This document shows positions 1 to 64,000 of a stretch of DNA of 64,000 nucleotides, piece after piece (positions within the stretch are counted from its first letter, which is position 1; every line of letters starts with the position of its first letter). The notes beneath the pieces are model-generated. The model was given only the letters and a program-made list of their open reading frames with translations. It searched no databases and was not told the origin of the DNA. The stretch comes from Loxodes magnus (taxonomy: Eukaryota; Ciliophora; Karyorelictea; Loxodida; Loxodidae): contig CAMPDV010000456.1 of assembly GCA_946699065.1 (NCBI GenBank), positions 1 through 64,000 of the forward strand, written 5' to 3'. The position numbers and the translations under genes are program-made.

Positions 1-1748
1 GTCTTGACGTCCCATAGTCTCACCGTCTAATCATCACTTCCCGATACGATGAACTCTAAATCACTGGATATAGCCACAGCATATACATAACTAGTGTGAC
101 CACTCATGGTCTTACAGGTACCTGTCTTGACGTCCCATAGTCTCACCGCCTTATCTCTACTTCCCGATACGATGAACTCTGAATCACTGGATATAGCCAC
201 AGATAATACAGAACTAGTGTGACCACTCATGGTCTTACAGGTACCTGTCTTGACGTCCCATAGTCTCACCGTCTAATCATAACTTCCCGATACGATGAAC
301 TCTAAATCACTGGATATAGCCACAGCATATACATAACTAGTGTGACCACTCATGGTCTTACAGGTACCTGTCTTGACGTCCCATAGTCTCACCGCCTTAT
401 CTCTACTTCCCGATACGATGAACTCTGAATCACTGGATATAGCCACAGCATTTACATAACTAGTGTGACCACTCATGGTCTTACAGGTACATGTCTTGAC
501 GTCCCATAGTCTCACCGTCTTATCTAAACTTCCCGATACGATGAACTCTGAATCACTGGATATAGCCACAGCATTTACATAACTAGTGTGACCACTCATG
601 GTCTTACAGGTACCTGTCTTGACGTCCCATAGTCTCACCGTCTAATCATAACTTCCCGATACGATGAACTCTGAATCACTGGATATAGCCACAGCATTTA
701 CATAACTAGTGTGACCACTCATGGTCTTACAGGTACCTGTCTTGACGTCCCATAGTCTCACCGTCTAATCTAAACTTCCCGATACGATGAACTCTGAATC
801 ACTGGATATAGCCACAGATAATACATAACTAGTGTGACCACTCATGGTCTTACAGGTACCTGTCTTGACGTCCCATAGTCTCACCGCCTTATCTCTACTT
901 CCCGATACGATGAACTCTGAATCACTGGATATAGCCACAGATAATACAGAACTAGTGTGACCACTCATGGTCTTACAGGTACCTGTCTTGACGTCCCATA
1001 GTCTCACCGTCTAATCATAACTTCCCGATACGATGAACTCTGAATCACTGGATATAGCCACAGCATTTACATAACTAGTGTGACCACTCATGGTCTTACA
1101 GGTACCTGTCTTGACGTCCCATAGTCTCACCGTCTAATCATCACTTCCCGATACGATGAACTCTGAATCACTGGATATAGCCACAGATCATACATAACTA
1201 GTGTGACCACTCATGGTCTTACAGGTACCTGTCTTGACGTCCCATAGTCTCACCGTCTAATCATCACTTCCCGATACGATGAACTCTGAATCACTGGATA
1301 TAGCCACAGCATTTACATAACTAGTGTGACCACTCATGGTCTTACAGGTACCTGTCTTGACGTCCCATAGTCTCACCGTATAATCTCCACTTCCGATACG
1401 ATGAACTCTGAATCACTGGATATAGCCACAGCATTTACATAACTAGTGTGACCACTCATGGTCTTACAGGTACCTGTCTTGACGTCCCATAGTCTCACCG
1501 TCTAATCATAACTTCCCGATACGATGAACTCTAAATCACTGGATATAGCCACAGCATATACATAACTAGTGTGACCACTCATGGTCTTACAGGTACCTGT
1601 CTTGACGTCCCATAGTCTCACCGCCTTATCTCTACTTCCCGATACGATGAACTCTGAATCACTGGATATAGCCACAGATAATACAGAACTAGTGTGACCA
1701 CTCATGGTCTTACAGGTACCTGTCTTGACGTCCCATAGTCCTCACCGT

Positions 1749-2360
1749 CTAATCATAACTTCCCGATACGATGAACTCTAAATCACTGGATATAGCCACA
1801 GCATATACATAACTAGTGTGACCACTCATGGTCTTACAGGTACCTGTCTTGACGTCCCATAGTCTCACCGCCTTATCTCTACTTCCCGATACGATGAACT
1901 CTGAATCACTGGATATAGCCACAGCATTTACATAACTAGTGTGACCACTCATGGTCTTACAGGTACCTGTCTTGACGTCCCATAGTCTCACCGTCTTATC
2001 TAAACTTCCCGATACGATGAACTCTGAATCACTGGATATAGCCACAGCATTTACATAACTAGTGTGACCACTCATGGTCTTACAGGTACCTGTCTTGACG
2101 TCCCATAGTCTCACCGTCTTATCTCTACTTCCCGATACGATGAACTCTGAATCACTGGATATAGCCACAGCATTTACATAACTAGTGTGACCACTCATGG
2201 TCTTACAGGTACCTGTCTTGACGTCCCATAGTCTCACCGCCTTATCTCTACTTCCCGATACGATGAACTCTGAATCACTGGATATAGCAACAGCATTTAC
2301 ATAACTAGTGTGACCACTCATGGTCTTACAGGTACCTGTCTTGACGTCCCATAGTCTCAC
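1749..2360 (-). CDS. Open block of five WD40 repeats (array fragment)
   Basis: This is a 203-codon stop-free slice of the array frame, bounded on both sides by TAG at residue 25. Repeats in reading order end in turns RDKA, RDK, LDK and RDKA before a closing YD-TAG. The first codon is GTG (Val27 of a repeat), so this is not a credible translation start. Five blades are fewer than a normal seven-blade propeller. It is listed only as one of the longest open pieces of zone A, not as an independent gene. Confidence 0.35.
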   Translation of the reverse strand: MRLWDVKTGTCKTMSGHTSYVNAVAISSDSEFIVSGSRDKAVRLWDVKTGTCKTMSGHTSYVNAVAISSDSEFIVSGSRDKTVRLWDVKTGTCKTMSGHTSYVNAVAISSDSEFIVSGSLDKTVRLWDVKTGTCKTMSGHTSYVNAVAISSDSEFIVSGSRDKAVRLWDVKTGTCKTMSGHTSYVYAVAISSDLEFIVSGSYD

Positions 2361-14820: not shown

Positions 14821-16149
14821 TGAACTCTGAATCACTGGATATAGCAACAGCATTTACATAACTAGTGTGACCACTCATGGTCTTACAGGTACCTGTCTTG
14901 ACGTCCCATAGTCTCATCGTCTAATCATCACTTCCCGATACGATGAACTCTGAATCACTGGATATAGCCACAGATAATACAGAACTAGTGTGACCACTCA
15001 TGGTCTTACAGGTACATGTCTTGACGTCCCATAGTCTCACCGTCTTATCATGACTTCCCGATACGATGAACTCTGAATCACTGGATATAGCCACAGATAA
15101 TACATAACTAGTGTGACCACTCATGGTCTTACAGGTACATGTCTTGACGTCCCATAGTCTCACCGTCTAATCATTACTTCCCGATACGATGAACTCTGAA
15201 TCACTGGATATAGCCACAGCATTTACATAACTAGTGTGACCACTCATGGTCTTACAGGTACATGTCTTGACGTCCCATAGTCTCACCGTCTTATCTAAAC
15301 TTCCCGATACGATGAACTCTGAATCACTGGATATAGCCACAGCATTTACATAACTAGTGTGACCACTCATGGTCTTACAGGTACCTGTCTTGACGTCCCA
15401 TAGTCTCACCGTCTAATCTAAACTTCCCAATACGATGAACTCTGAATCACTGGATATAGCCACAGCATTTCATAACTAGTGTGACCACTCATGGTCTTAC
15501 AGGTACCTGTCTTGACGTCCCATAGTCTCACCGTCTTATCTAAACTTCCCGATACGATGAACTCTGAATCACTGGATATAGCAAAAGCATTTACATAACT
15601 AGTGTGACCACTCATGGTCTTACAGGTACCTGTCTTGACGTCCCATAGTCTCACCGTCTAATCATCACTTCCCGATACGATGAACTCTGAATCACTGGAT
15701 ATAGCAACAGCATTTACATAACTAGTGTGACCACTCATGGTCTTACAGGTACCTGTCTTGACGTCCCATAGTCTCACCGTCTTATCTAAACTTCCCGATA
15801 CGATGAACTCTGAATCACTGGATATAGCCACAGCATTTACATAACTAGTGTGACCACTCATGGTCTTACAGGTACCTGTCTTGACGTCCCATAGTCTCAC
15901 CGTCTAATCTAAACTTCCCGATACGATGAACTCTGAATCACTGGATATAGCCACAGATCATACATAACTAGTGTGACCACTCATGGTCTTACAGGTACCT
16001 GTCTTGACGTCCCATAGTCTCACCGTCTTATCATGACTTCCCGATACGATGAACTCTGAATCACTGGATATAACCACAGATCATACATAACTAGTGTGAC
16101 CACTCATGGTCTTACAGGTACCTGTCTTGACGTCCCATAGTCTCACCGT

Positions 16150-16638
16150 CTAATCATAACTTCCCGATACGATGAACTCTGAATCACTGGTTATAGCAAC
16201 AGCATTTACATAACTAGTGTGACCACTCATGGTCTTACAGGTACCTGTCTTGACGTCCCATAGTCTCACCGTCTTATCTAAACTTCCCGATACGATGAAC
16301 TCTGAATCACTGAATATAGCAACAGCATTTACATAACTAGTGTGACCACTCATGGTCTTACAGGTACCTGTCTTGACGTCCCATAGTCTCACCGTATAAT
16401 CTCCACTTCCCGATACGATGAACTCTGAATCACTGGATATAGCCACAGCATTTACATAACTAGTGTGACCACTCATGGTCTTACAGGTACCTGTCTTGAC
16501 GTCCCATAGTCTCACCGTATAATCTCCACTTCCCGATACGATGAACTCTGAATCACTGGATATAGCAACAGCATTTACATAACTAGTGTGACCACTCATG
16601 GTCTTACAGGTACCTGTCTTGACGTCCCATAGTCTCAC
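16150..16638 (-). CDS. Open block of four WD40 repeats (array fragment)
   Basis: A 162-codon TAG-to-TAG slice with turns LDK, GDY and GDY, one Phe12 variant (AIFSD) and one Thr variant at residue 12 (AITSD, from ggttatagc near 16190). The apparent start is GTG. It is one of the two longest clean slices in the first part of zone C. Confidence 0.3.
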   Translation of the reverse strand: MRLWDVKTGTCKTMSGHTSYVNAVAISSDSEFIVSGSGDYTVRLWDVKTGTCKTMSGHTSYVNAVAISSDSEFIVSGSGDYTVRLWDVKTGTCKTMSGHTSYVNAVAIFSDSEFIVSGSLDKTVRLWDVKTGTCKTMSGHTSYVNAVAITSDSEFIVSGSYD

Positions 16639-20202: not shown

Positions 20203-20207
20203 ACCGT

Positions 20208-32900: not shown

Positions 32901-33234
32901 TCACTGGATATAGCCACAGCATTTACATAACTAGTGTGACCACTCATGGTCTTACAGGTACCTGTCTTGACGTCCCATAGTCTCACCGTATAATCTCCAC
33001 TTCCCGATACGATGAACTCTGAATCACTGGATATAGCCACAGCATATACATAACTAGTGTGACCACTCATGGTCTTACAGGTACCTGTCTTGACGTCCCA
33101 TAGTCTCACCGTCTAATCTAAACTTCCCGATACGATGAACTCTGAATCACTGGATATAGCAACAGCATTTCATAACTAGTGTGACCACTCATGGTCTTAC
33201 AGGTACCTGTCTTGACGTCCCATAGTCTCACCGT

Positions 33235-44600: not shown

Positions 44601-47600
44601 AGCATTTACATAACTAGTGTGACCACTCATGGTCTTACAGGTACCTGTCTTGACGTCCCATAGTCTCACCGTCTTATCATAACTTCCCGATACGATGAAC
44701 TCTGAATCACTGGATATAGCCACAGATAATACAGAACTAGTGTGACCACTCATGGTCTTACAGGTACCTGTCTTGACGTCCCATAGTCTCACCGTCTTAT
44801 CTAAACTTCCCAATACGATGAACTCTGAATCACTGGATATAGCAACAGCATTTACATAACTAGTGTGACCACTCATGGTCTTACAGGTACCTGTCTTGAC
44901 GTCCCATAGTCTCACCGTCTTATCTAAACTTCCCGATACGATGAACTCTGAATCACTGGATATAGCCACAGCATTTACATAACTAGTGTGACCACTCATG
45001 GTCTTACAGGTACCTGTCTTGACGTCCCATAGTCTCACCGTCTTATCATGACTTCCCGATACGATGAACTCTGAATCACTGGATATAGCCACAGCATTTA
45101 CATAACTAGTGTGACCACTCATGGTCTTACAGGTACCTGTCTTGACGTCCCATAGTCTCACCGTATAATCTCTACTTCCCGATACGATGAACTCTGAATC
45201 ACTGGATATAGCCACAGCATTTACATAACTAGTGTGACCACTCATGGTCTTACAGGTACCTGTCTTGACGTCCCATAGTCTCACCGTCTTATCATAACTT
45301 CCCGATACGATGAACTCTGAATCACTGGATATAGCCACAGATAATACAGAACTAGTGTGACCACTCATGGTCTTACAGGTACCTGTCTTGACGTCCCATA
45401 GTCTCACCGTCTTATCTAAACTTCCCAATACGATGAACTCTGAATCACTGGATATAGCAACAGCATTTACATAACTAGTGTGACCACTCATGGTCTTACA
45501 GGTACCTGTCTTGACGTCCCATAGTCTCACCGTCTTATCTAAACTTCCCGATACGATGAACTCTGAATCACTGGATATAGCCACAGCATTTACATAACTA
45601 GTGTGACCACTCATGGTCTTACAGGTACCTGTCTTGACGTCCCATAGTCTCACCGTCTTATCATGACTTCCCGATACGATGAACTCTGAATCACTGGATA
45701 TAGCCACAGCATTTACATAACTAGTGTGACCACTCATGGTCTTACAGGTACCTGTCTTGACGTCCCATAGTCTCACCGTATAATCTCCACTTCCCGATAC
45801 GATGAACTCTGAATCACTGGATATAGCCACAGCATTTACATAACTAGTGTGACCACTCATGGTCTTACAGGTACCTGTCTTGACGTCCCATAGTCTCACC
45901 GTCTTATCATAACTTCCCGATACGATGAACTCTGAATCACTGGATATAGCCACAGCATTTACATAACTAGTGTGACCACTCATGGTCTTACAGGTACCTG
46001 TCTTGACGTCCCATAGTCTCACCGTCTTATCATAACTTCCCGATACGATGAACTCTGAATCACTGGATATAGCCACAGATAATACAGAACTAGTGTGACC
46101 ACTCATGGTCTTACAGGTACCTGTCTTGACGTCCCATAGTCTCACCGTCTTATCTAAACTTCCCAATACGATGAACTCTGAATCACTGGATATAGCAACA
46201 GCATTTACATAACTAGTGTGACCACTCATGGTCTTACAGGTACCTGTCTTGACGTCCCATAGTCTCACCGTATAATCTCTACTTCCCGATACGATGAACT
46301 CTGAATCACTGGATATAGCCACAGCATTTACATAACTAGTGTGACCACTCATGGTCTTACAGGTACCTGTCTTGACGTCCCATAGTCTCACCGTCTTATC
46401 ATGACTTCCCGATACGATGAACTCTGAATCACTGGATATAGCCACAGCATTTACATAACTAGTGTGACCACTCATGGTCTTACAGGTACCTGTCTTGACG
46501 TCCCATAGTCTCACCGTATAATCTCCACTTCCCGATACGATGAACTCTGAATCACTGGATATAGCCACAGCATTTACATAACTAGTGTGACCACTCATGG
46601 TCTTACAGGTACCTGTCTTGACGTCCCATAGTCTCACCGTCTAATCATAACTTCCCGATACGATGAACTCTAAATCACTGGATGTAGCAACAGCATTTAC
46701 ATAACTAGTGTGACCACTCATGGTCTTACAGGTACCTGTCTTGACGTCCCATAGTCTCACCGTCTAATCATCACTTCCCGATACGATGAACTCTGAATCA
46801 CTGGATATATCCACAGATAATACATAATCTGTGTGACCACTCATGGTCTTACAGGTACCTGTCTTGACGTCCCATAGTCTCACCGTCTTATCATAACTTC
46901 CCGATACGATGAACTCTGAATCACTGGATATAGCCACAGCATTTACATAACTAGTGTGACCACTCATGGTCTTACAGGTACCTGTCTTGACGTCCCATAG
47001 TCTCACCGCCTTATCTCTACTTCCCGATACGATGAACTCTGAATCACTGGATATAGCCACAGCATTTACATAACTAGTGTGACCACTCATGGTCTTACAG
47101 GTACCTGTCTTGACGTCCCATAGTCTCACCGTCTAATCATAACTTCCCGATACGATGAACTCTGAATCACTGGATATAGCGACAGCATTTACATAACTAG
47201 TGTGACCACTCATGGTCTTACAGGTACCTGTCTTGACGTCCCATAGTCTCACCGTCTAATCATCACTTCCCGATACGATGAACTCTGAATCACTGGATAT
47301 ATCCACAGATAATACATAATCTGTGTGACCACTCATGGTCTTACAGGTACCTGTCTTGACGTCCCATAGTCTCACCGTATAATCTCCACTTCCCGATACG
47401 ATGAACTCTGAATCACTGGATATAGCCACAGCATTTACATAACTAGTGTGACCACTCATGGTCTTACAGGTACCTGTCTTGACGTCCCATAGTCTCACCG
47501 CCTTATCTCTACTTCCCGATACGATGAACTCTGAATCACTGGATATAGCCACAGCATTTACATAACTAGTGTGACCACTCATGGTCTTACAGGTACCTGT

Positions 47601-50600
47601 CTTGACGTCCCATAGTCTCACCGTATAATCTCCACTTCCCGATACGATGAACTCTGAATCACTGGATATAGCCACAGCATTTACATAACTAGTGTGACCA
47701 CTCATGGTCTTACAGGTACCTGTCTTGACGTCCCATAGTCTCACCGTATAATCTCCACTTCCCGATACGATGAACTCTGAATCACTGGATATAGCCACAG
47801 CATTTACATAACTAGTGTGACCACTCATGGTCTTACAGGTACCTGTCTTGACGTCCCATAGTCTCACCGTCTAATCATAACTTCCCGATACGATGAACTC
47901 TGAATCACTGGATAAAGCAACAGCATTTACATAACTAGTGTGACCACTCATGGTCTTACAGGTACCTGTCTTGACGTCCCATAGTCTCACCGTATAATCT
48001 CCACTTCCCGATACGATGAACTCTGAATCACTGAATATAGCAACAGCATTTACATAACTAGTGTGACCACTCATGGTCTTACAGGTACATGTCTTGACGT
48101 CCCATAGTCTCACCGTCTTATCATAACTTCCCGATACGATGAACTCTGAATCACTGGATATAGCCACAGCATTTACATAACTAGTGTGACCACTCATGGT
48201 CTTACAGGTACCTGTCTTGACGTCCCATAGTCTCACCGCCTTATCTCTACTTCCCGATACGATGAACTCTGAATCACTGGATATAGCCACAGCATTTACA
48301 TAACTAGTGTGACCACTCATGGTCTTACAGGTACCTGTCTTGACGTCCCATAGTCTCACCGTCTAATCATAACTTCCCGATACGATGAACTCTAAATCAC
48401 TGGATGTAGCAACAGCATTTACATAACTAGTGTGACCACTCATGGTCTTACAGGTACCTGTCTTGACGTCCCATAGTCTCACCGTCTAATCATCACTTCC
48501 CGATACGATGAACTCTGAATCACTGGATATAGCCACAGCATATACAGAATAAGTGTGACCACTCATGGTCTTACAGGTACATGTCTTGACGTCCCATAGT
48601 CTCACCGTCTTATCATAACTTCCCGATACGATGAACTCTGAATCACTGGATATAGCCACAGCATTTACATAACTAGTGTGACCACTCATGGTCTTACAGG
48701 TACCTGTCTTGACGTCCCATAGTCTCACCGTCTTATCTAAACTTCCCGATACGATGAACTCTGAATCACTGGATATAGCCACAGCATTTACATAACTAGT
48801 GTGACCACTCATGGTCTTACAGGTACCTGTCTTGACGTCCCATAGTCTCACCGTATAATCTCCACTTCCCGATACGATGAACTCTGAATCACTGGATATA
48901 GCCACAGCATTTACATAACTAGTGTGACCACTCATGGTCTTACAGGTACCTGTCTTGACGTCCCATAGTCTCACCGTCTAATCATAACTTCCCGATACGA
49001 TGAACTCTAAATCACTGGATGTAGCAACAGCATTTACATAACTAGTGTGACCACTCATGGTCTTACAGGTACCTGTCTTGACGTCCCATAGTCTCACCGT
49101 CTAATCATAACTTCCCGATACGATGAACTCTGAATCACTGGATATATCCACAGATAATACATAATCTGTGTGACCACTCATGGTCTTACAGGTACCTGTC
49201 TTGACGTCCCATAGTCTCACCGTCTAATCATAACTTCCCGATACGATGAACTCTAAATCACTGGATATAGCCACAGCATTTACATAACTAGTGTGACCAC
49301 TCATGGTCTTACAGGTACCTGTCTTGACGTCCCATAGTCTCACCGTATAATCTCCACTTCCCGATACGATGAACTCTGAATCACTGGATATAGCCACAGC
49401 ATTTACATAACTAGTGTGACCACTCATGGTCTTACAGGTACCTGTCTTGACGTCCCATAGTCTCACCGTATAATCTCCACTTCCCGATACGATGAACTCT
49501 GAATCACTGGATATAGCCACAGCATTTACATAACTAGTGTGACCACTCATGGTCTTACAGGTACCTGTCTTGACGTCCCATAGTCTCACCGTCTTATCAT
49601 AACTTCCCGATACGATGAACTCTGAATCACTGGATATAGCCACAGCATTTACATAACTAGTGTGACCACTCATGGTCTTACAGGTACCTGTCTTGACGTC
49701 CCATAGTCTCACCGTCTTATCTAAACTTCCCGATACGATGAACTCTGAATCACTGGATATAGCCACAGCATTTACATAACTAGTGTGACCACTCATGGTC
49801 TTACAGGTACCTGTCTTGACGTCCCATAGTCTCACCGTCTTATCTAAACTTCCCGATACGATGAACTCTAAATCACTGGATATAGCCACAGCATTTACAT
49901 AACTAGTGTGACCACTCATGGTCTTACAGGTACCTGTCTTGACGTCCCATAGTCTCACCGTATAATCTCCACTTCCCGATACGATGAACTCTGAATCACT
50001 GGATATAGCCACAGCATTTACATAACTAGTGTGACCACTCATGGTCTTACAGGTACCTGTCTTGACGTCCCATAGTCTCACCGTATAATCTCCACTTCCC
50101 GATACGATGAACTCTGAATCACTGGATATAGCCACAGCATTTACATAACTAGTGTGACCACTCATGGTCTTACAGGTACCTGTCTTGACGTCCCATAGTC
50201 TCACCGTATAATCTCCACTTCCCGATACGATGAACTCTGAATCACTGGATATAGCCACAGCATTTACATAACTAGTGTGACCACTCATGGTCTTACAGGT
50301 ACCTGTCTTGACGTCCCATAGTCTCACCGTCTAATCATAACTTCCCGATACGATGAACTCTGAATCACTGGATATAGCCACAGCATTTACATAACTAGTG
50401 TGACCACTCATGGTCTTACAGGTACCTGTCTTGACGTCCCATAGTCTCACCGTCTAATCATAACTTCCCGATACGATGAACTCTGAATCACTGGATAAAG
50501 CAACAGCATTTACATAACTAGTGTGACCACTCATGGTCTTACAGGTACCTGTCTTGACGTCCCATAGTCTCACCGTATAATCTCCACTTCCCGATACGAT

Positions 50601-53600
50601 GAACTCTGAATCACTGAATATAGCAACAGCATTTACATAACTAGTGTGACCACTCATGGTCTTACAGGTACATGTCTTGACGTCCCATAGTCTCACCGTC
50701 TTATCTAAACTTCCCGATACGATGAACTCTGAATCACTGGATATAGCCACAGCATTTACATAACTAGTGTGACCACTCATGGTCTTACAGGTACCTGTCT
50801 TGACGTCCCATAGTCTCACCGTCTAATCATAACTTCCCGATACGATGAACTCTGAATCACTGGATATATCCACAGATAATACATAATCTGTGTGACCACT
50901 CATGGTCTTACAGGTACCTGTCTTGACGTCCCATAGTCTCACCGTCTTATCTAAACTTCCCGATACGATGAACTCTGAATCACTGGATATAGCCACAGCA
51001 TTTACATAACTAGTGTGACCACTCATGGTCTTACAGGTACCTGTCTTGACGTCCCATAGTCTCACCGTCTAATCATAACTTCCCGATACGATGAACTCTG
51101 AATCACTGGATATATCCACAGATAATACATAATCTGTGTGACCACTCATGGTCTTACAGGTACCTGTCTTGACGTCCCATAGTCTCACCGTCTTATCATA
51201 ACTTCCCGATACGATGAACTCTGAATCACTGGATATAGCCACAGATCATACATAACTAGTGTGACCACTCATGGTCTTACAGGTACCTGTCTTGACGTCC
51301 CATAGTCTCACCGTATAATCTAAACTTCCCGATACGATGAACTCTGAATCACTGGATATAGCCACAGCATTTACATAACTAGTGTGACCACTCATGGTCT
51401 TACAGGTACCTGTCTTGACGTCCCATAGTCTCACCGTCTAATCATAACTTCCCGATACGATGAACTCTGAATCACTGGATATAGCAACAGCATTTACATA
51501 ACTAGTGTGACCACTCATGGTCTTACAGGTACCTGTCTTGACGTCCCATAGTCTCACCGTCTTATCATCACTTCCCGATACGATGAACTCTGAATCACTG
51601 AATATAGCAACAGCATTTACATAACTAGTGTGACCACTCATGGTCTTACAGGTACCTGTCTTGACGTCCCATAGTCTCACCGTCTAATCATCACTTCCCG
51701 ATACGATGAACTCTGAATCACTGGATATAGCCACAGCATATACAGAATAAGTGTGACCACTCATGGTCTTACAGGTACATGTCTTGACGTCCCATAGTCT
51801 CACCGTCTTATCATAACTTCCCGATACGATGAACTCTGAATCACTGGATATAGCCACAGCATTTACATAACTAGTGTGACCACTCATGGTCTTACAGGTA
51901 CCTGTCTTGACGTCCCATAGTCTCACCGTATAATCATCACTTCCCGATACGATGAACTCTGAATCACTGGATATATCCACAGATAATACATAATCTGTGT
52001 GACCACTCATGGTCTTACAGGTACCTGTCTTGACGTCCCATAGTCTCACCGTATAATCTAAACTTCCCGATACGATGAACTCTGAATCACTGGATATAGC
52101 CACAGCATTTACATAACTAGTGTGACCACTCATGGTCTTACAGGTACCTGTCTTGACGTCCCATAGTCTCACCGTCTTATCTAAACTTCCCGATACGATG
52201 AACTCTGAATCACTGGATATAGCCACAGCATTTACATAACTAGTGTGACCACTCATGGTCTTACAGGTACCTGTCTTGACGTCCCATAGTCTCACCGTCT
52301 TATCTAAACTTCCCGATACGATGAACTCTGAATCACTGGATATAGCCACAGATAATACAGAACTAGTGTGACCACTCATGGTCTTACAGGTACCTGTCTT
52401 GACGTCCCATAGTCTCACCGTCTTATCTAAACTTCCCGATACGATGAACTCTGAATCACTGGATATAGCCACAGCATTTACATAACTAGTGTGACCACTC
52501 ATGGTCTTACAGGTACCTGTCTTGACGTCCCATAGTCTCACCGTATAATCTCCACTTCCCGATACGATGAACTCTGAATCACTGGATATAGCCACAGATA
52601 ATACAGAACTAGTGTGACCACTCATGGTCTTACAGGTACCTGTCTTGACGTCCCATAGTCTCACCGCCTTATCTCTACTTCCCGATACGATGAACTCTGA
52701 ATCACTGGATATAGCCACAGCATTTACATAACTAGTGTGACCACTCATGGTCTTACAGATACCTGTCTTGACGTCCCATAGTCTCACCGTCTAATCATAA
52801 CTTCCCGATACGATGAACTCTAAATCACTGGATGTAGCAACAGCATTTACATAACTAGTGTGACCACTCATGGTCTTACAGGTACCTGTCTTGACGTCCC
52901 ATAGTCTCACCGTCTAATCATCACTTCCCGATACGATGAACTCTGAATCACTGGATATATCCACAGATAATACATAATCTGTGTGACCACTCATGGTCTT
53001 ACAGGTACCTGTCTTGACGTCCCATAGTCTCACCGTCTTATCATAACTTCCCGATACGATGAACTCTGAATCACTGGATATAGCCACAGCATTTACATAA
53101 CTAGTGTGACCACTCATGGTCTTACAGGTACCTGTCTTGACGTCCCATAGTCTCACCGCCTTATCTCTACTTCCCGATACGATGAACTCTGAATCACTGG
53201 ATATAGCCACAGCATTTACATAACTAGTGTGACCACTCATGGTCTTACAGGTACCTGTCTTGACGTCCCATAGTCTCACCGTCTAATCATAACTTCCCGA
53301 TACGATGAACTCTAAATCACTGGATGTAGCAACAGCATTTACATAACTAGTGTGACCACTCATGGTCTTACAGGTACCTGTCTTGACGTCCCATAGTCTC
53401 ACCGCCTTATCTCTACTTCCCGATACGATGAACTCTGAATCACTGGATATAGCCACAGCATTTACATAACTAGTGTGACCACTCATGGTCTTACAGGTAC
53501 CTGTCTTGACGTCCCATAGTCTCACCGTCTAATCATCACTTCCCGATACGATGAACTCTGAATCACTGGATATAGCCACAGATAATACAGAACTAGTGTG

Positions 53601-56600
53601 ACCACTCATGGTCTTACAGGTACATGTCTTGACGTCCCATAGTCTCACCGTCTAATCATAACTTCCCGATACGATGAACTCTGAATCACTGGATATAGCC
53701 ACAGCATTTACATAACTAGTGTGACCACTCATGGTCTTACAGGTACCTGTCTTGACGTCCCATAGTCTCACCGCCTTATCTCTACTTCCCGATACGATGA
53801 ACTCTGAATCACTGGATATAGCCACAGCATTTACATAACTAGTGTGACCACTCATGGTCTTACAGGTACCTGTCTTGACGTCCCATAGTCTCACCGTATA
53901 ATCTCCACTTCCCGATACGATGAACTCTGAATCACTGGATATAGCCACAGATAATACAGAACTAGTGTGACCACTCATGGTCTTACAGGTACCTGTCTTG
54001 ACGTCCCATAGTCTCACCGTCTAATCATCACTTCCCGATACGATGAACTCTGAATCACTGGATATAGCCACAGCATATACAGAATAAGTGTGACCACTCA
54101 TGGTCTTACAGGTACATGTCTTGACGTCCCATAGTCTCACCGTATAATCTCCACTTCCCGATACGATGAACTCTGAATCACTGGATATAGCCACAGCATT
54201 TACATAACTAGTGTGACCACTCATGGTCTTACAGGTACCTGTCTTGACGTCCCATAGTCTCACCGTCTTATCTAAACTTCCCGATACGATGAACTCTAAA
54301 TCACTGGATATAGCCACAGCATTTACATAACTAGTGTGACCACTCATGGTCTTACAGGTACCTGTCTTGACGTCCCATAGTCTCACCGTATAATCTCCAC
54401 TTCCCGATACGATGAACTCTGAATCACTGGATATAGCCACAGCATTTACATAACTAGTGTGACCACTCATGGTCTTACAGGTACCTGTCTTGACGTCCCA
54501 TAGTCTCACCGTCTTATCATAACTTCCCGATACGATGAACTCTGAATCACTGGATATAGCCACAGCATTTACATAACTAGTGTGACCACTCATGGTCTTA
54601 CAGGTACCTGTCTTGACGTCCCATAGTCTCACCGTATAATCTCCACTTCCCGATACGATGAACTCTGAATCACTGGATATAGCCACAGCATTTACATAAC
54701 TAGTGTGACCACTCATGGTCTTACAGGTACCTGTCTTGACGTCCCATAGTCTCACCGTATAATCTCCACTTCCCGATACGATGAACTCTGAATCACTGAA
54801 TATAGCAACAGCATTTACATAACTAGTGTGACCACTCATGGTCTTACAGGTACATGTCTTGACGTCCCATAATCTCACCGTCTTATCTAAACTTCCCGAT
54901 ACGATGAACTCTGAATCACTGGATATAGCCACAGCATTTACATAACTAGTGTGACCACTCATGGTCTTACAGGTACCTGTCTTGACGTCCCATAGTCTCA
55001 CCGTATAATCTCCACTTCCCGATACGATGAACTCTGAATCACTGAATATAGCAACAGCATTTACATAACTAGTGTGACCACTCATGGTCTTACAGGTACA
55101 TGTCTTGACGTCCCATAGTCTCACCGCCTTATCTCTACTTCCCGATACGATGAACTCTGAATCACTGGATATAGCCACAGCATTTACATAACTAGTGTGA
55201 CCACTCATGGTCTTACAGGTACCTGTCTTGACGTCCCATAGTCTCACCGTCTAATCATAACTTCCCGATACGATGAACTCTGAATCACTGGATATATCCA
55301 CAGATAATACATAATCTGTGTGACCACTCATGGTCTTACAGGTACCTGTCTTGACGTCCCATAGTCTCACCGTCTAATCATCACTTCCCGATACGATGAA
55401 CTCTGAATCACTGGATATAGCCACAGCATTTACATAACTAGTGTGACCACTCATGGTCTTACAGGTACCTGTCTTGACGTCCCATAGTCTCACCGTATAA
55501 TCTCCACTTCCCGATACGATGAACTCTGAATCACTGGATATATCCACAGATAATACATAATCTGAGTGACCACTCATGGTCTTACAGGTACCTGTCTTGA
55601 CGTCCCATAGTCTCACCGTATAATCTCCACTTCCCGATACGATGAACTCTGAATCACTGGATATAGCCACAGCATTTACATAACTAGTGTGACCACTCAT
55701 GGTCTTACAGGTACCTGTCTTGACGTCCCATAGTCTCACCGCCTTATCTCTACTTCCCGATACGATGAACTCTGAATCACTGGATATAGCCACAGCATTT
55801 ACATAACTAGTGTGACCACTCATGGTCTTACAGGTACCTGTCTTGACGTCCCATAGTCTCACCGTATAATCTCCACTTCCCGATACGATGAACTCTGAAT
55901 CACTGGATATAGCCACAGCATTTACATAACTAGTGTGACCACTCATGGTCTTACAGGTACATGTCTTGACGTCCCATAGTCTCACCGTCTTATCTAAACT
56001 TCCCGATACGATGAACTCTGAATCACTGGATATAGCCACAGCATTTACATAACTAGTGTGACCACTCATGGTCTTACAGGTACCTGTCTTGACGTCCCAT
56101 AGTCTCACCGTCTAATCATAACTTCCCGATACGATGAACTCTGAATCACTGGATATAGCCACAGCATTTACATAACTAGTGTGACCACTCATGGTCTTAC
56201 AGGTACCTGTCTTGACGTCCCATAGTCTCACCGTCTAATCATCACTTCCCGATACGATGAACTCTGAATCACTGGATATAGCCACAGCATATACAGAATA
56301 AGTGTGACCACTCATGGTCTTACAGGTACATGTCTTGACGTCCCATAGTCTCACCGTATAATCTCCACTTCCCGATACGATGAACTCTGAATCACTGGAT
56401 ATAGCCACAGCATTTACATAACTAGTGTGACCACTCATGGTCTTACAGGTACCTGTCTTGACGTCCCATAGTCTCACCGTCTTATCTAAACTTCCCGATA
56501 CGATGAACTCTAAATCACTGGATATAGCCACAGCATTTACATAACTAGTGTGACCACTCATGGTCTTACAGGTACCTGTCTTGACGTCCCATAGTCTCAC

Positions 56601-59600
56601 CGTATAATCTCCACTTCCCGATACGATGAACTCTGAATCACTGGATATAGCCACAGCATTTACATAACTAGTGTGACCACTCATGGTCTTACAGGTACCT
56701 GTCTTGACGTCCCATAGTCTCACCGTCTTATCATAACTTCCCGATACGATGAACTCTGAATCACTGGATATAGCCACAGCATTTACATAACTAGTGTGAC
56801 CACTCATGGTCTTACAGGTACCTGTCTTGACGTCCCATAGTCTCACCGTCTAATCTCCACTTCCCGATACGATGAACTCTGAATCACTGGATATAGCCAC
56901 AGCATTTACATAACTAGTGTGACCACTCATGGTCTTACAGGTACCTGTCTTGACGTCCCATAGTCTCAACGTATAATCTCCACTTCCCGATACGATGAAC
57001 TCTGAATCACTGAATATAGCAACAGCATTTACATAACTAGTGTGACCACTCATGGTCTTACAGGTACATGTCTTGACGTCCCATAGTCTCACCGTCTTAT
57101 CTAAACTTCCCGATACGATGAACTCTGAATCACTGGATATAGCCACAGCATTTACATAACTAGTGTGACCACTCATGGTCTTACAGGTACCTGTCTTGAC
57201 GTCCCATAGTCTCACCGTCTAATCATAACTTCCCGATACGATGAACTCTGAATCACTGGATATATCCACAGCATTTACATAACTAGTGTGACCACTCATG
57301 GTCTTACAGGTACCTGTCTTGACGTCCCATAGTCTCACCGTCTAATCATCACTTCCCGATACGATGAACTCTGAATCACTGGATATAGCCACAGCATTTA
57401 CATAACTAGTGTGACCACTCATGGTCTTACAGGTACATGTCTTGACGTCCCATAGTCTCACCGTCTAATCTCCACTTCCCGATACGATGAACTCTGAATC
57501 ACTGGATATAGCCACAGCATTTACATAACTAGTGTGACCACTCATGGTCTTACAGGTACCTGTCTTGACGTCCCATAGTCTCACCGTCTAATCTCCACTT
57601 CCCGATACGATGAACTCTGAATCACTGGATATAGCCACAGCATTTACATAACTAGTGTGACCACTCATGGTCTTACAGGTACCTGTCTTGACGTCCCATA
57701 GTCTCACCGTATAATCTCCACTTCCCGATACGATGAACTCTGAATCACTGGATATAGCCACAGCATTTACATAACTAGTGTGACCACTCATGGTCTTACA
57801 GGTACCTGTCTTGACGTCCCATAGTCTCACCGTCTAATCATAACTTCCCGATACGATGAACTCTGAATCACTGGATATAGCCACAGATAATACATAATCT
57901 GTGTGACCACTCATGGTCTTACAGGTACCTGTCTTGACGTCCCATAGTCTCACCGTCTTATCTAAACTTCCCGATACGATGAACTCTGAATCACTGGATA
58001 TAGCCACAGCATTTACATAACTAGTGTGACCACTCATGGTCTTACAGGTACCTGTCTTGACGTCCCATAGTCTCACCGTCTAATCATAACTTCCCGATAC
58101 GATGAACTCTGAATCACTGGATATATCCACAGATAATACATAATCTGTGTGACCACTCATGGTCTTACAGGTACCTGTCTTGACGTCCCATAGTCTCACC
58201 GTCTAATCATCACTTCCCGATACGATGAACTCTGAATCACTGGATATAGCCACAGCATTTACATAACTAGTGTGACCACTCATGGTCTTACAGGTACCTG
58301 TCTTGACGTCCCATAGTCTCACCGTACAATCTCAACTTCCCGATACGATGAACTCTGAATCACTGGATATATCCACAGATAATACATAATCTGAGTGACC
58401 ACTCATGGTCTTACAGGTACCTGTCTTGACGTCCCATAGTCTCACCGTATAATCTCCACTTCCCGATACGATGAACTCTGAATCACTGAATATAGCAACA
58501 GCATTTACATAACTAGTGTGACCACTCATGGTCTTACAGGTACCTGTCTTGACGTCCCATAGTCTCACCGTATAATCTCCACTTCCCGATACGATGAACT
58601 CTGAATCACTGGATATAGCCACAGCATTTACATAACTAGTGTGACCACTCATGGTCTTACAGGTACCTGTCTTGACGTCCCATAGTCTCACCGTCTTATC
58701 TAAACTTCCCGATACGATGAACTCTAAATCACTGGATATAGCCACAGCATTTACATAACTAGTGTGACCACTCATGGTCTTACAGGTACCTGTCTTGACG
58801 TCCCATAGTCTCACCGTATAATCTCCACTTCCCGATACGATGAACTCTGAATCACTGGATATAGCCACAGCATTTACATAACTAGTGTGACCACTCATGG
58901 TCTTACAGGTACCTGTCTTGACGTCCCATAGTCTCACCGTCTTATCATCACTTCCCGATACGATGAACTCTGAATCACTGGATATAGCCACAGCATTTAC
59001 ATAACTAGTGTGACCACTCATGGTCTTACAGGTACCTGTCTTGACGTCCCATAGTCTCACCGTATAATCTCCACTTCCCGATACGATGAACTCTGAATCA
59101 CTGGATATAGCCACAGCATTTACATAACTAGTGTGACCACTCATGGTCTTACAGGTACCTGTCTTGACGTCCCATAGTCTCACCGTCTTATCTAAACTTC
59201 CCGATACGATGAACTCTAAATCACTGGATATAGCCACAGCATTTACATAACTAGTGTGACCACTCATGGTCTTACAGGTACCTGTCTTGACGTCCCATAG
59301 TCTCACCGTATAATCTCCACTTCCCGATACGATGAACTCTGAATCACTGTATATAGCCACAGCATTTACATAACTAGTGTGACCACTCATGGTCTTACAG
59401 GTACCTGTCTTGACGTCCCATAGTCTCACCGTCTTATCATAACTTCCCGATACGATGAACTCTGAATCACTGGATATAGCCACAGCATTTACATAACTAG
59501 TGTGACCACTCATGGTCTTACAGGTACCTGTCTTGACGTCCCATAGTCTCACCGTATAATCTCCACTTCCCGATACGATGAACTCTGAATCACTGGATAT

Positions 59601-59798
59601 AGCCACAGCATTTACATAACTAGTGTGACCACTCATGGTCTTACAGGTACCTGTCTTGACGTCCCATAGTCTCAACGTATAATCTCCACTTCCCGATACG
59701 ATGAACTCTGAATCACTGAATATAGCAACAGCATTTACATAACTAGTGTGACCACTCATGGTCTTACAGGTACATGTCTTGACGTCCCATAGTCTCAC
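35694..59798 (-). CDS. Zone D: indel-free WD40 block, interrupted by in-frame TAG codons
   Basis: About 196 consecutive units whose spacing stays at exact multiples of 123 bp over 24 kb, so the WD40 frame never shifts. The interruptions are TAG at residue 25 in about a third of units, one TGA at residue 7 (about 51245), and one TGA from a point change at the Gly before Asp24 (about 58330). If UAG is a sense codon here, two segments of thousands of residues would be open. Otherwise the longest slice is 736 codons. This frame conservation contrasts sharply with zones B and C. It could mean selection on the protein, or simply very recent homogenisation from an intact template. Type CDS is used for the intact frame; expression is unproven. 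Confidence 0.45.
36309..38026 (-). repeat. Higher-order block, copy 1 (14 units, offset 22 units)
   Basis: The order of units is repeated 2706 bp (22 x 123) to the right: identical translated slices of 121, 80 and 162 codons, then a nearly identical run through turns YDK, RDKA, GDY and LDK with the Leu15 variant. One difference is GTT against GTG at Val9 near 37460 and 40166. Confidence 0.85.
39015..40732 (-). repeat. Higher-order block, copy 2 (14 units, offset 22 units)
   Basis: Second copy of 36309-38026. To its right the copies diverge: here the open frame continues two more units, because the turn that is TAG in copy 1 (about 38030) is AAG (Lys) here. Confidence 0.85.
40122..40979 (-). 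CDS. Open block of seven WD40 repeats (array fragment)
   Basis: A 285-codon TAG-to-TAG slice. Seven blades is the usual size of a complete WD40 propeller, though the slice starts and ends mid-repeat at residue 25-27. Because it begins at the innermost strand of one unit, a Velcro-type closure would be possible in principle. Turns in order are GDY, LDK, LDK, GDY, RDKA and YDK. The start is GTG, with the first ATG (Met40, before SGH) 15 codons in. There is no evidence of separate expression. Confidence 0.35.
   Translation of the reverse strand: MRLWDVKTGTCKTMSGHTSYVNAVAISSDSEFIVSGSGDYTVRLWDVKTGTCKTMSGHTSYVNAVAISSDSEFIVSGSLDKTVRLWDVKTGTCKTMSGHTSYVNAVAISSDLEFIVSGSLDKTVRLWDVKTGTCKTMSGHTSSVLSVAISSDSEFIVSGSGDYTVRLWDVKTGTCKTMSGHTSYVNAVAISSDSEFIVSGSRDKAVRLWDVKTGTCKTMSGHTSYVNAVAISSDSEFIVSGSYDKTVRLWDVKTGTCKTMSGHTSYVNAVAISSDLEFIVSGSYD
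43443..44300 (-). CDS. Open block of seven WD40 repeats (array fragment)
   Basis: A 285-codon TAG-to-TAG slice that is the short relative of the 18-repeat block to its right. Turns are GDY, HDK, LDK, LDK (the IVLGS variant), YDK and YDK, ending in a [11 protein letters not shown] repeat. The apparent start is GTG. Confidence 0.35.
   Translation of the reverse strand: MRLWDVKTGTCKTMSGHTSYVNAVAISSDSEFIVSGSGDYTVRLWDVKTGTCKTMSGHTSYVNAVAISSDSEFIVSGSHDKTVRLWDVKTGTCKTMSGHTSYVNAVAISSDSEFIVSGSLDKTVRLWDVKTGTCKTMSGHTSYVNAVAISSDSEFIVLGSLDKTVRLWDVKTGTCKTMSGHTSSVLSVAISSDSEFIVSGSYDKTVRLWDVKTGTCKTMSGHTSYVNAVAISSDSEFIVSGSYDKTVRLWDVKTGTCKTMSGHTDYVLSVDISSDSEFIVSGSYD
43566..46637 (-). repeat. Four tandem copies of a 5-8 unit cassette
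   Basis: The IVLGS marker units are spaced 984, 615 and 738 bp apart, that is 8, 5 and 6 units. Around each the order YDK, SSVLSV/YDK, LDK(IVLGS) recurs, usually followed by LDK, HDK and GDY. In the fourth copy an RDY unit replaces the first LDK. This is a nested higher-order repeat built by steps of unequal size. Confidence 0.8.
44427..46637 (-). CDS. Longest stop-free WD40 block: 18 repeats, 736 codons
   Basis: The longest slice of the window, TAG to TAG, with no indel. It contains three successive copies of a five-to-six-unit cassette, each marked by the IVLGS unit (cttcccaatac near 44808, 45424 and 46162) followed by an SSVLSV unit and a YDK turn. A fourth copy lies in the block just to the left (43821). 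Two units have the unusual RDY turn (tataatctctac near 45165 and 46270), a hybrid of the RDKA and GDY cassettes. Eighteen blades would make more than two seven-bladed propellers. The apparent start is GTG within a repeat, so it is most likely an internal part of something larger. Confidence 0.45.
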   Translation of the reverse strand: MRLWDVKTGTCKTMSGHTSYVNAVAISSDSEFIVSGSGDYTVRLWDVKTGTCKTMSGHTSYVNAVAISSDSEFIVSGSHDKTVRLWDVKTGTCKTMSGHTSYVNAVAISSDSEFIVSGSRDYTVRLWDVKTGTCKTMSGHTSYVNAVAISSDSEFIVLGSLDKTVRLWDVKTGTCKTMSGHTSSVLSVAISSDSEFIVSGSYDKTVRLWDVKTGTCKTMSGHTSYVNAVAISSDSEFIVSGSYDKTVRLWDVKTGTCKTMSGHTSYVNAVAISSDSEFIVSGSGDYTVRLWDVKTGTCKTMSGHTSYVNAVAISSDSEFIVSGSHDKTVRLWDVKTGTCKTMSGHTSYVNAVAISSDSEFIVSGSLDKTVRLWDVKTGTCKTMSGHTSYVNAVAISSDSEFIVLGSLDKTVRLWDVKTGTCKTMSGHTSSVLSVAISSDSEFIVSGSYDKTVRLWDVKTGTCKTMSGHTSYVNAVAISSDSEFIVSGSRDYTVRLWDVKTGTCKTMSGHTSYVNAVAISSDSEFIVSGSHDKTVRLWDVKTGTCKTMSGHTSYVNAVAISSDSEFIVSGSLDKTVRLWDVKTGTCKTMSGHTSYVNAVAISSDSEFIVLGSLDKTVRLWDVKTGTCKTMSGHTSSVLSVAISSDSEFIVSGSYDKTVRLWDVKTGTCKTMSGHTSYVNAVAISSDSEFIVSGSYDKTVRLWDVKTGTCKTMSGHTDYVLSVDISSDSEFIVSGSYD
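49224..50327 (-). CDS. Open block of nine WD40 repeats (array fragment)
   Basis: A 367-codon TAG-to-TAG slice dominated by GDY turns (six) with SYVNAV faces throughout, so it is the most uniform long piece of the window. The Leu15 variant (SSDLEF) occurs twice. The apparent start is GTG. Confidence 0.35.
   Translation of the reverse strand: MRLWDVKTGTCKTMSGHTSYVNAVAISSDSEFIVSGSGDYTVRLWDVKTGTCKTMSGHTSYVNAVAISSDSEFIVSGSGDYTVRLWDVKTGTCKTMSGHTSYVNAVAISSDSEFIVSGSGDYTVRLWDVKTGTCKTMSGHTSYVNAVAISSDLEFIVSGSLDKTVRLWDVKTGTCKTMSGHTSYVNAVAISSDSEFIVSGSLDKTVRLWDVKTGTCKTMSGHTSYVNAVAISSDSEFIVSGSYDKTVRLWDVKTGTCKTMSGHTSYVNAVAISSDSEFIVSGSGDYTVRLWDVKTGTCKTMSGHTSYVNAVAISSDSEFIVSGSGDYTVRLWDVKTGTCKTMSGHTSYVNAVAISSDLEFIVSGSYD
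51684..52787 (-). CDS. Open block of nine WD40 repeats (array fragment)
   Basis: A 367-codon TAG-to-TAG slice with the most varied faces in zone D: SYVNAV, SSVLSV, DYVLSVD and YSVYAV. It contains unusual turns DDY and LDY and a KTGIC variant at its upstream end (cagatacctg near 52757). The apparent start is GTG. Confidence 0.35.
   Translation of the reverse strand: MRLWDVKTGICKTMSGHTSYVNAVAISSDSEFIVSGSRDKAVRLWDVKTGTCKTMSGHTSSVLSVAISSDSEFIVSGSGDYTVRLWDVKTGTCKTMSGHTSYVNAVAISSDSEFIVSGSLDKTVRLWDVKTGTCKTMSGHTSSVLSVAISSDSEFIVSGSLDKTVRLWDVKTGTCKTMSGHTSYVNAVAISSDSEFIVSGSLDKTVRLWDVKTGTCKTMSGHTSYVNAVAISSDSEFIVSGSLDYTVRLWDVKTGTCKTMSGHTDYVLSVDISSDSEFIVSGSDDYTVRLWDVKTGTCKTMSGHTSYVNAVAISSDSEFIVSGSYDKTVRLWDVKTCTCKTMSGHTYSVYAVAISSDSEFIVSGSDD
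54021..55247 (-). CDS. Open block of ten WD40 repeats (array fragment)
   Basis: A 408-codon TAG-to-TAG slice with turns RDKA, GDY, LDK, GDY, GDY, YDK, GDY, LDK and GDY. Two near-identical units pair the Phe12 variant (AIFSD, from ctgaatat) with KTCTC, seen near 54797 and 55043, two units apart. The apparent start is GTG. Confidence 0.35.
   Translation of the reverse strand: MRLWDVKTGTCKTMSGHTSYVNAVAISSDSEFIVSGSRDKAVRLWDVKTCTCKTMSGHTSYVNAVAIFSDSEFIVSGSGDYTVRLWDVKTGTCKTMSGHTSYVNAVAISSDSEFIVSGSLDKTVRLWDVKTCTCKTMSGHTSYVNAVAIFSDSEFIVSGSGDYTVRLWDVKTGTCKTMSGHTSYVNAVAISSDSEFIVSGSGDYTVRLWDVKTGTCKTMSGHTSYVNAVAISSDSEFIVSGSYDKTVRLWDVKTGTCKTMSGHTSYVNAVAISSDSEFIVSGSGDYTVRLWDVKTGTCKTMSGHTSYVNAVAISSDLEFIVSGSLDKTVRLWDVKTGTCKTMSGHTSYVNAVAISSDSEFIVSGSGDYTVRLWDVKTCTCKTMSGHTYSVYAVAISSDSEFIVSGSDD
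55374..56108 (-). repeat. Higher-order block, copy 1 (6 units, offset 61 units)
   Basis: A 244-codon open slice whose translation is identical to that of 62879-63613, 7505 bp away (61 x 123 plus 2 net indel bases). It includes the rare Ser3 variant (GHSDYV, from aatctgagtgacc near 55560). That variant is seen otherwise only at 58380-58400 and in the second copy. Confidence 0.85.
56340..57830 (-). repeat. Higher-order block, copy 1 (about 12 units, offset 22 units)
   Basis: Shares unit order and rare markers with the block 22 units (2706 bp) to the right: tctcaacg (Leu27, giving TLRLWD) near 56966, a DISS unit with an SYVNAV face near 57265, and consecutive ctaatctccac (GD-stop) turns near 57468 and 57588. 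Confidence 0.8.
57830..58322 (-). repeat. Higher-order block, copy 1 (4 units, offset 33 units)
   Basis: The unit order YD-stop with [16 protein letters not shown]-stop with DISS, DD-stop matches 61892-62384. The offset is 4062 bp, that is 33 x 123 plus the three extra bases between the copies. Confidence 0.75.
58332..59798 (-). CDS. Open block of twelve WD40 repeats (array fragment)
   Basis: A 488-codon slice, the second longest. It ends at a private TGA (plus strand aatctcaac near 58330, where GGA for Gly23 became TGA), not at the usual TAG. Its upstream limit comes from the indel pair near 59815-59836. It contains LDK turns with the Leu15 variant alternating with GDY turns, a Tyr12 variant (AIYSD near 59350), one DDK turn and one TLRLWD unit. 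The apparent start is GTG. Confidence 0.35.
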   Translation of the reverse strand: MRLWDVKTCTCKTMSGHTSYVNAVAIFSDSEFIVSGSGDYTLRLWDVKTGTCKTMSGHTSYVNAVAISSDSEFIVSGSGDYTVRLWDVKTGTCKTMSGHTSYVNAVAISSDSEFIVSGSYDKTVRLWDVKTGTCKTMSGHTSYVNAVAIYSDSEFIVSGSGDYTVRLWDVKTGTCKTMSGHTSYVNAVAISSDLEFIVSGSLDKTVRLWDVKTGTCKTMSGHTSYVNAVAISSDSEFIVSGSGDYTVRLWDVKTGTCKTMSGHTSYVNAVAISSDSEFIVSGSDDKTVRLWDVKTGTCKTMSGHTSYVNAVAISSDSEFIVSGSGDYTVRLWDVKTGTCKTMSGHTSYVNAVAISSDLEFIVSGSLDKTVRLWDVKTGTCKTMSGHTSYVNAVAISSDSEFIVSGSGDYTVRLWDVKTGTCKTMSGHTSYVNAVAIFSDSEFIVSGSGDYTVRLWDVKTGTCKTMSGHSDYVLSVDISSDSEFIVSGS

Positions 59799-60538
59799 CG
59801 TCTTATCTAAACTTCCCCGATACGATGAACTCTGAAATCACTGGATATAGCCACAGCATTTACATAACTAGTGTGACCACTCATGGTCTTACAGGTACCT
59901 GTCTTGACGTCCCATAGTCTCACCGTCTAATCATAACTTCCCGATACGATGAACTCTGAATCACTGGATATATCCACAGCATTTACATAACTAGTGTGAC
60001 CACTCATGGTCTTACAGGTACCTGTCTTGACGTCCCATAGTCTCACCGTCTAATCATCACTTCCCGATACGATGAACTCTGAATCACTGGATATAGCCAC
60101 AGCATTTACATAACTAGTGTGACCACTCATGGTCTTACAGGTACATGTCTTGACGTCCCATAGTCTCACCGTCTAATCTCCACTTCCCGATACGATGAAC
60201 TCTGAATCACTGGATATAGCCACAGCATTTACATAACTAGTGTGACCACTCATGGTCTTACAGGTACCTGTCTTGACGTCCCATAGTCTCACCGTCTAAT
60301 CTCCACTTCCCGATACGATGAACTCTGAATCACTGGATATAGCCACAGCATTTACATAACTAGTGTGACCACTCATGGTCTTACAGGTACCTGTCTTGAC
60401 GTCCCATAGTCTCACCGTATAATCTCCACTTCCCGATACGATGAACTCTGAATCACTGGATATAGCCACAGCATTTACATAACTAGTGTGACCACTCATG
60501 GTCTTACAGGTACCCTGTCTTGACGTCCCATAGTCTCA
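59045..60538 (-). repeat. Higher-order block, copy 2 (about 12 units, offset 22 units)
   Basis: Second copy of 56340-57830, with tctcaacg near 59671. It has picked up extra bases near 59815 (cttcccc), 59836 (gaaatc) and 60512 (gtaccc) that are absent from copy 1. The offset is 2706 bp before these sites and 2708 bp after the first two. Confidence 0.8.
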
Positions 60539-62878: not shown

Positions 62879-63613
62879 CTAATCATCACTTCCCGATACG
62901 ATGAACTCTGAATCACTGGATATAGCCACAGCATTTACATAACTAGTGTGACCACTCATGGTCTTACAGGTACCTGTCTTGACGTCCCATAGTCTCACCG
63001 TATAATCTCCACTTCCCGATACGATGAACTCTGAATCACTGGATATATCCACAGATAATACATAATCTGAGTGACCACTCATGGTCTTACAGGTACCTGT
63101 CTTGACGTCCCATAGTCTCACCGTATAATCTCCACTTCCCGATACGATGAACTCTGAATCACTGGATATAGCCACAGCATTTACATAACTAGTGTGACCA
63201 CTCATGGTCTTACAGGTACCTGTCTTGACGTCCCATAGTCTCACCGCCTTATCTCTACTTCCCGATACGATGAACTCTGAATCACTGGATATAGCCACAG
63301 CATTTACATAACTAGTGTGACCACTCATGGTCTTACAGGTACCTGTCTTGACGTCCCATAGTCTCACCGTATAATCTCCACTTCCCGATACGATGAACTC
63401 TGAATCACTGGATATAGCCACAGCATTTACATAACTAGTGTGACCACTCATGGTCTTACAGGTACATGTCTTGACGTCCCATAGTCTCACCGTCTTATCT
63501 AAACTTCCCGATACGATGAACTCTGAATCACTGGATATAGCCACAGCATTTACATAACTAGTGTGACCACTCATGGTCTTACAGGTACCTGTCTTGACGT
63601 CCCATAGTCTCAC
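62879..63613 (-). repeat. Higher-order block, copy 2 (6 units, offset 61 units)
   Basis: Second copy of 55374-56108, with the same six-unit order and the GHSDYV marker near 63068. It is an open 244-codon slice, TAG to TAG, of the same frame. Confidence 0.85.
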
Positions 63614-64000
63614 CGTCTAATCATAACTTCCCGATACGATGAACTCTGAATCACTGGATAAAGCAACAGCATTTACATAACTAGTGTGACCACTCATGGT
63701 CTTACAGGTACCTGTCTTGACGTCCCATAGTCTCACCGTATAATCTCCACTTCCCGATACGATGAACTCTGAATCACTGGATATAGCCACAGCATTTACA
63801 TAACTAGTGTGACCACTCATGGTCTTACAGGTACCTGTCTTGACGTCCCATAGTCTCACCGTCTTATCTCCACTTCCCGATACGATGAACTCTGAATCAC
63901 TGGATATAGCCACAGCATTTACATAACTAGTGTGACCACTCATGGTCTTACAGGTACCTGTCTTGACGTCCCATAGTCTCACCGTCTAATCATAACTTCC

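Follow-up and report, generated by a model that had tools for sequence, protein, structure and literature searches.

The window, by which we mean the whole 64,000-nucleotide stretch that was analyzed, raises a simple question: does the TAG that recurs in frame at one place of its WD40 repeat stop translation, or does it stand for a residue? The original prediction preferred the second reading, with UAG as a sense codon (glutamine, as in ciliates), and offered as the alternative a nonsense allele copied around the array. Our overall answer, held with high confidence, is that this is the DNA of a karyorelict ciliate in which UAG and UAA specify glutamine and that TAG is an ordinary allele at a variable surface column of a WD40 array.

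Tandem Repeats Finder (TRF) returned positions 1-64000 as a single tandem array with a period of 123, 520.3 copies, and 1% indels. Cyclic alignment of the reverse complement of the window to the consensus unit parsed 522 units, of which 500 had no deletion. The 41 codons of the unit are numbered from the D of DVKTGT, and residue 25 of the original prediction is column 36 in this numbering.

Positions 1..64000, reverse strand: WD40 tandem array with a 123-bp (41-codon) unit, one array in TRF and 522 units in the cyclic alignment.

The array continues beyond the window on the same contig (C456; 263,470 bases) and was found in every sampled stretch up to about C456:180216. These samples leave 60 kb of array in between unread, and the whole would come to ~1,460 units in about 180 kb if the unread gaps are alike. 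On its sense strand the array starts in the middle of a unit, against an 80-bp AT-rich satellite near C456:180216, and its other end is the contig end. At C456:174001-194000 (L052, L048) the WD40 array has about 44% G+C and the adjoining satellite about 25%. The units of the window also carry a Gly/Cys variant in column 5 (GGT in 454 and TGT in 66 of 520 units), which is outside the known variable surface sites. Further WD40 places in the assembly are many and include C1503, C119, C620, C9, C272, C1832, and C6957 (99,277 first-look candidates, of which 150 were scored).

Column 36, which lies between Asp35 and Thr37-Val-Arg-Leu-Trp, is TAG in 244 of the 521 readable units, AAG in 183, TAT in 92, AAT in 1, and TGT in 1. 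These 244 are nearly all of the 245 in-frame TAGs of the window, the remaining one replacing TGG in column 41. The predicted confinement of TAG to one repeat column and the predicted sister codons (AAG, TAT, rarely AAT) were thus borne out, whereas the estimate that about a third of units carry TAG was too low, the share being 47% across the window and ranging from 18 of 65 units at positions 40001-48000 up to 49 of 66 at 24001-32000. No in-frame TAA was counted among the 522 parsed units, and TGA occurs in frame in column 18 (28 units) and column 34 (1 unit). TAG stands on 41 different backgrounds of columns 15, 16, 18, 19, 21, and 34, with at least 3 copies on 18 of them, so a single block recently duplicated in its entirety is not the explanation. 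Tandem copies are not independent, and the confinement of TAG is therefore by itself no chance test; it gains meaning from what the genome as a whole shows about the code and from which column is affected.

The evidence on the code comes primarily from conserved genes, whose codon use had been proposed as the check on the prediction. The assembly holds 29 matches to the Cpn60/TCP1 chaperonin family, of which 22 are full-length, each with 2 to 10 TAG and 8 to 17 TAA; the 7 shorter matches also hold TAG and TAA but were left out of the codon scoring. The 22 sequences were aligned with every stop written as X, and each X column was scored by the other sequences. TAG was best read as Gln (score of 26.5 over 103 sites, versus 9.9 for Glu in second place), as was TAA (34.1 over 262 sites, versus −30.6 for Glu). 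The control codons CAA and CAG likewise came out as Gln, and eight more controls (GAA, AAG, AAA, TTA, TAT, TGG, GAG, and AAT) recovered their standard residues, making ten of ten in total. TGA, with 2 sites in all 22 matches, was too rare for an assignment. Gln wins clearly, though by a modest margin at each site, since few Gln columns are conserved. These chaperonin-family genes of the same assembly support the reading of UAG as glutamine that the original prediction preferred.

Individual genes point the same way. In the CCT-zeta gene (L019), 7 of 19 X positions fall on Gln of a solved zeta subunit (3 of 7 TAG and 4 of 12 TAA), by a hand count in one alignment, the first of the four printed. 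The remaining 12 X positions align with K, D, A, R, Y, T, G, or N, and the four TAGs among them with D, K, K, and T. Of three eRF1_1 matches, two were followed (the third being L016); these eRF1-like genes have open frames of about 450 codons that contain TAA and TAG and end at TGA. Genes that end in TAG and lack in-frame TAG at conserved residues, which would have spoken against the prediction, were not what we found, the gene ends looked at being those of the two eRF1-like frames. Elsewhere, TAG takes the place of CAG (Gln) in 3 of 78 units of the C6957 array and in 1 of 276 counted units of the C119 and C1503 arrays. The two eRF1-like genes (L017, L018) are very similar and lie about 35 kb apart on C196. 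A stretch that looks like an interspersed repeat (CWR...LIASPK...TTCVNYGYLNSP) is present both at L053 (C119:695001-695500), upstream of a WD40 array, and at L017, near an eRF1-like gene.

The assembly also has a multicopy tRNA with anticodon CUA. A search pattern joining a CUA anticodon loop to a T arm matched 86 places versus 20 for a backward-read control, and by our own count 72 of the 86 are identical. ARAGORN found a tRNA with anticodon CTA in 3 of the 4 places fetched and none in the fourth; its label, Pyl, is due to the bacterial code used. A shared-body pattern, allowing at most 1 mismatch and only YTR anticodons, gave 340 matches versus 0 for its control, and the anticodons among the 100 matches listed of these 340 were CTA or TTG. 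A tRNA with anticodon UUA, which this pattern permits, was absent among the 100 matches listed of 340. The CUA tRNA and the TTG-anticodon tRNA share 27 of 32 bases by our own count, most of the compared bases being fixed by the pattern, and 2 of the 5 differences are in the anticodon. The CUA tRNA is thus multicopy and has a tRNA-Gln-like body, and from that body it would be charged with glutamine. The candidates from an earlier pattern (8 matches versus 1 for the control) were rejected, as they are not a CUA tRNA; by eye, we take them to resemble the D arm of a leucine or serine tRNA. CTA-anticodon tRNA genes also stand in a regular tandem at C130:557649-566500, with 588-bp spacing and at least 16 copies (including L055, C130:557580-557760).

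To see how the units would fold, eight consecutive units of the window were taken with TAG read as Gln.

Positions 51423..52406, reverse strand: eight consecutive units, modeled with TAG read as Gln.

This sequence matched Pfam PF00400 in eight stretches with an E value of 1.1e-94. An AlphaFold model made with no alignment had a mean pLDDT of 92.1 and a pTM of 0.90; four of the five models had a pLDDT of 86 to 92, and one had 39. The strands of unit 1 in the model are at residues 8-11, 17-22, 28-33, and 38-42, which would place columns 34 and 36 in the b-c turn, column 16 in the d-a loop, and column 18 at the start of strand a. The nearest solved folds are WD40 propellers, including ODA16 (5mzh), Tako8 (6y7o), and 2ymu.

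These positions have a counterpart in fungi. According to the available text of PMC1805685, the NWD repeats of Podospora have four codons under strong positive selection, 7 and 9 around a conserved codon 8 and 25 and 27 around a conserved codon 26, and these sit in the d-a loop and the b-c turn. The equivalents in the window are columns 16 and 18, which flank V17, and columns 34 and 36, which flank D35, with the same spacing; the two numberings were matched through the conserved V and D, which lie 18 apart, rather than through an alignment with HET-E. The original prediction did not recognize its TAG column as belonging to a set of four hypervariable surface sites. In the 500 complete units, the four columns, which were named beforehand by PMC1805685, hold 19 of the 53 extra codon types versus an expected 5.2 (P = 2.8e-7) and 12 of 33 if only types with at least 3 copies are counted (P = 3.7e-5), both P values treating codon types as independent. 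The seven-site list in the accessible part of PMC12222747, mapped by hand with one site falling onto the next unit, takes in 24 of the 53 (P = 1.7e-6).

The variation is not confined to the four sites. Ranked by amino acid entropy, the leading columns of the window are 34, 36, 18, 19, 15, and 16, in that order; all four sites are in the top six, but columns 19 and 15 come ahead of column 16, the weakest of the four, with 1 extra codon type in complete units; column 34 has nine amino acid states. Seven variable columns (14, 15, 16, 18, 19, 34, and 36), chosen partly from the data, hold 1 synonymous and 25 nonsynonymous codon types, while the columns outside them hold 6 synonymous and 21 nonsynonymous types (neutral share, 0.255). 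In the rest of C456 (six samples, 451 readable units), the in-frame stops include 147 TAG at column 36 and 59, 45, and 52 TGA at columns 16, 18, and 34; TAA occurs 75 times at column 26 and twice at column 16, and a lone TAG stands at column 3. In a second WD40 array family (C119, C1503), with a 42-codon unit, the corresponding columns 17, 19, 35, and 37 are variable, as are columns 11, 12, 14, and 15; its 276 counted units include duplicates from overlapping loci. The C6957 array of this family varies at the same four columns plus Phe11 and Thr12, with variation of Pro25 in 2 units. TGA in the C119/C1503 family stands at columns where sister units have Phe, Ser, or Leu/Arg/Tyr. Since most WD40 families vary at exposed positions, the coincidence with the fungal sites does not point specifically to recognition. 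What the variable columns appear to record is an imprint at the protein level, not a recognition function.

Whether the array is still a gene is a separate matter from how its TAG is read. Three features bear on it.

Positions 35384..59818, reverse strand: longest stretch free of frameshifting indels, some 198 units, with 64 TAG in column 36 and 2 TGA as in-frame "stops."
Positions 35322..51245, reverse strand: open frame of 5,308 codons with TGA as the only stop, its final codons running past the frameshift at 35383.
Positions 15470..35383, reverse strand: zone with 14 units that share a 1-bp deletion at codon 17 (unit length, 122), from the unit alignment.

The longest stretch includes 198 contiguous 123-bp units at 35433-59786, and its 2 TGAs are in columns 18 and 34. 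The coordinates of the open frame were converted by hand from a reverse-complement start of 12755; under the standard code, the longest open frame on the strand of the array has 737 codons. Frameshift events in the 64-kb window number 35. Of the 14 units with the codon 17 deletion, 13 have a linked GTT at codon 20, and column 34 differs among the 14. Five 10-kb samples of C456 beyond the window have 1 frameshift, and the last 6.3 kb of the array at the far edge has 12 frameshifting events. The 35 frameshifts and the neutral-looking variation outside the seven columns argue against present purifying selection; despite its 198 clean units, the window probably does not hold an intact reading frame under selection and is probably not one intact gene. 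The array is most likely a coding-derived satellite, in whole or in part. We rejected even unit length as a proof of coding, as indels are about as scarce in the adjoining 80-bp satellite (0% in L048 and 1 to 3% in L052) as in the WD40 array (0% in L011 and 2% in L052). A search for NACHT domains gave 31 weak matches (best E value, 6.7e-7), none of them on C456, C119, C1503, or C6957; the single match on C9 is some 230 kb away from that contig's listed WD40 places.

Two explanations contest the glutamine reading itself. If UAG kept its standard meaning, TAG would be a nonsense allele in a dead satellite, spread by unequal exchange, and a disruptive allele does seem to spread here, the same −1 deletion being present in 14 units. 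To that extent the alternative offered by the original prediction was right about variants moving within the array, but it was not right about TAG being nonsense: TAG and TAA lie inside conserved genes of the same assembly, a multicopy CUA tRNA is present, and TAG is found in 244 of 521 units on 41 backgrounds versus 14 of 522 units for the frameshift. We regard a nonsense TAG as virtually impossible. It is also very improbable that UAG is a sense codon for Glu, Lys, Leu, or Tyr, as some other reassigned codes have it. Glu does come second for TAG in the chaperonin set, and the sister codons of column 36 are mostly those of Lys and Tyr, yet Gln comes first for TAG, TAA, CAA, and CAG alike, 3 of 7 TAGs in CCT-zeta fall on Gln, TAG replaces CAG in samples of the second array family, and the CUA tRNA has the shared bases with the TTG-anticodon tRNA described above, most of them fixed by the pattern. 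UAG in the array is thus most likely the ordinary glutamine codon of this ciliate.

A third explanation accepts glutamine and makes the array one or more living giant genes that encode consecutive WD40 propellers serving recognition, as with Podospora HNWD. We consider this doubtful, although a fair amount speaks for it: two array families vary at the same four columns, 198 contiguous units are clean, the samples beyond the window hold 1 frameshift, and the eight-unit model reached a pLDDT of 92 without an alignment. Yet a frameshift allele has spread in the window, frameshifting events crowd the far edge, the ratio of types outside the chosen variable columns is neutral, the array starts mid-unit against a satellite that itself has few indels, and none of the 31 NACHT matches is on C456, C119, C1503, or C6957, the one on C9 being distant from the WD40 places listed for that contig. 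Less probable still is the more speculative idea that very large, expressed WD40 arrays serve as a reservoir of recognition blades, in which exchange between thousands of units reshuffles the four exposed sites of each blade, UAG and UGA (Gln and Trp) are normal alleles, and the outcome is convergent with HNWD, possibly in mating-type or self recognition.

Our preferred reading, with TAG as a glutamine allele of a coding-derived array, would join what we observed of the code, the tRNA, the columns, and the repeated frameshift as follows. UAG and UAA both specify glutamine, UAG being read by the multicopy CUA tRNA, and UGA would be a stop and sometimes, by the published code, Trp. The array encodes nearly identical WD40 blades whose differences gather in a few exposed columns, most of all in 34, 36, and 18 but in 16, 19, and 15 as well. 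In column 36, Gln (TAG), Lys (AAG), and Tyr (TAT) replace one another, with Asn as a rare fourth state, and since these codons are linked by single-base steps, TAG is one ordinary allele of a freely varying surface position. Unit variants would have spread through the array by unequal exchange or conversion; that exchange was the copying process, and that the array descends from a WD40 gene with an exposed face under diversifying selection, are what we infer from the pattern of variants. The array of the window would now behave largely like a coding-derived satellite.

It follows that in-frame TAG here is ordinary ciliate coding, and that a class of arrays varies at the same surface sites as a fungal family for non-self recognition. 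Should any of the arrays be transcribed, they would add a separate instance of recognition diversity generated by exchange between nearly identical propeller blades; otherwise they would be a protein-coding repeat turned satellite and still marked by past selection. Both cases would be concealed as "low-complexity tandem repeats" by TRF masking of the kind applied in the published annotation.

The available text of PMC11441545 describes a 706-Mbp macronuclear (MAC) assembly of Loxodes magnus with genetic code table 27, in which UGA is a stop or Trp, and 231 Mbp of such repeats; its main text, as far as available and its supplement aside, leaves WD40 unmentioned. We found no literature combining Loxodes and WD40, and none on WD40 with satellites or megasatellites that describes such an array, judging from search listings and from the available parts of PMC5405496, where WD40 is listed among the tandem repeats of Paramecium. 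Within these sources, and the supplement of PMC11441545 aside, the class of WD40 arrays and the place of their variation were not found described in print. The TAG of the window is not new and is explained by a known code. As in code table 27 of karyorelict ciliates such as Loxodes, UAA and UAG stand in frame in conserved genes and are best read as Gln, and UGA ends both eRF1-like frames and also occurs inside WD40 units; no difference from this code was seen in these features.

Highly repetitive WD40 proteins (PMC5587647), 2ymu, and the designed Tako8 (6y7o) share with the array the almost identical blades, which the eight-unit model matches, but they are single proteins of some 7 to 14 blades, whereas the array is of satellite scale. 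The HNWD family of Podospora anserina (het-d, het-e, and het-r; PMC1805685 and PMC12222747, as far as these texts are available) differs in usually having 11 units per functional allele, compared to 522 in the window, and in genes that also carry an N-terminal effector and a NACHT domain, whereas here the sense-strand start of the array is mid-unit beside a satellite and C456 has no NACHT match. The array further differs in its frameshifted copies, its ciliate code, and its columns 15 and 19, which are as variable as column 16. The likeness lies in the near-identical WD40 repeats and in hypervariable codons set in two pairs, each flanking a conserved residue: 7, 9, 25, and 27 in HNWD and 16, 18, 34, and 36 in the array, the last of these being the column of the TAG.
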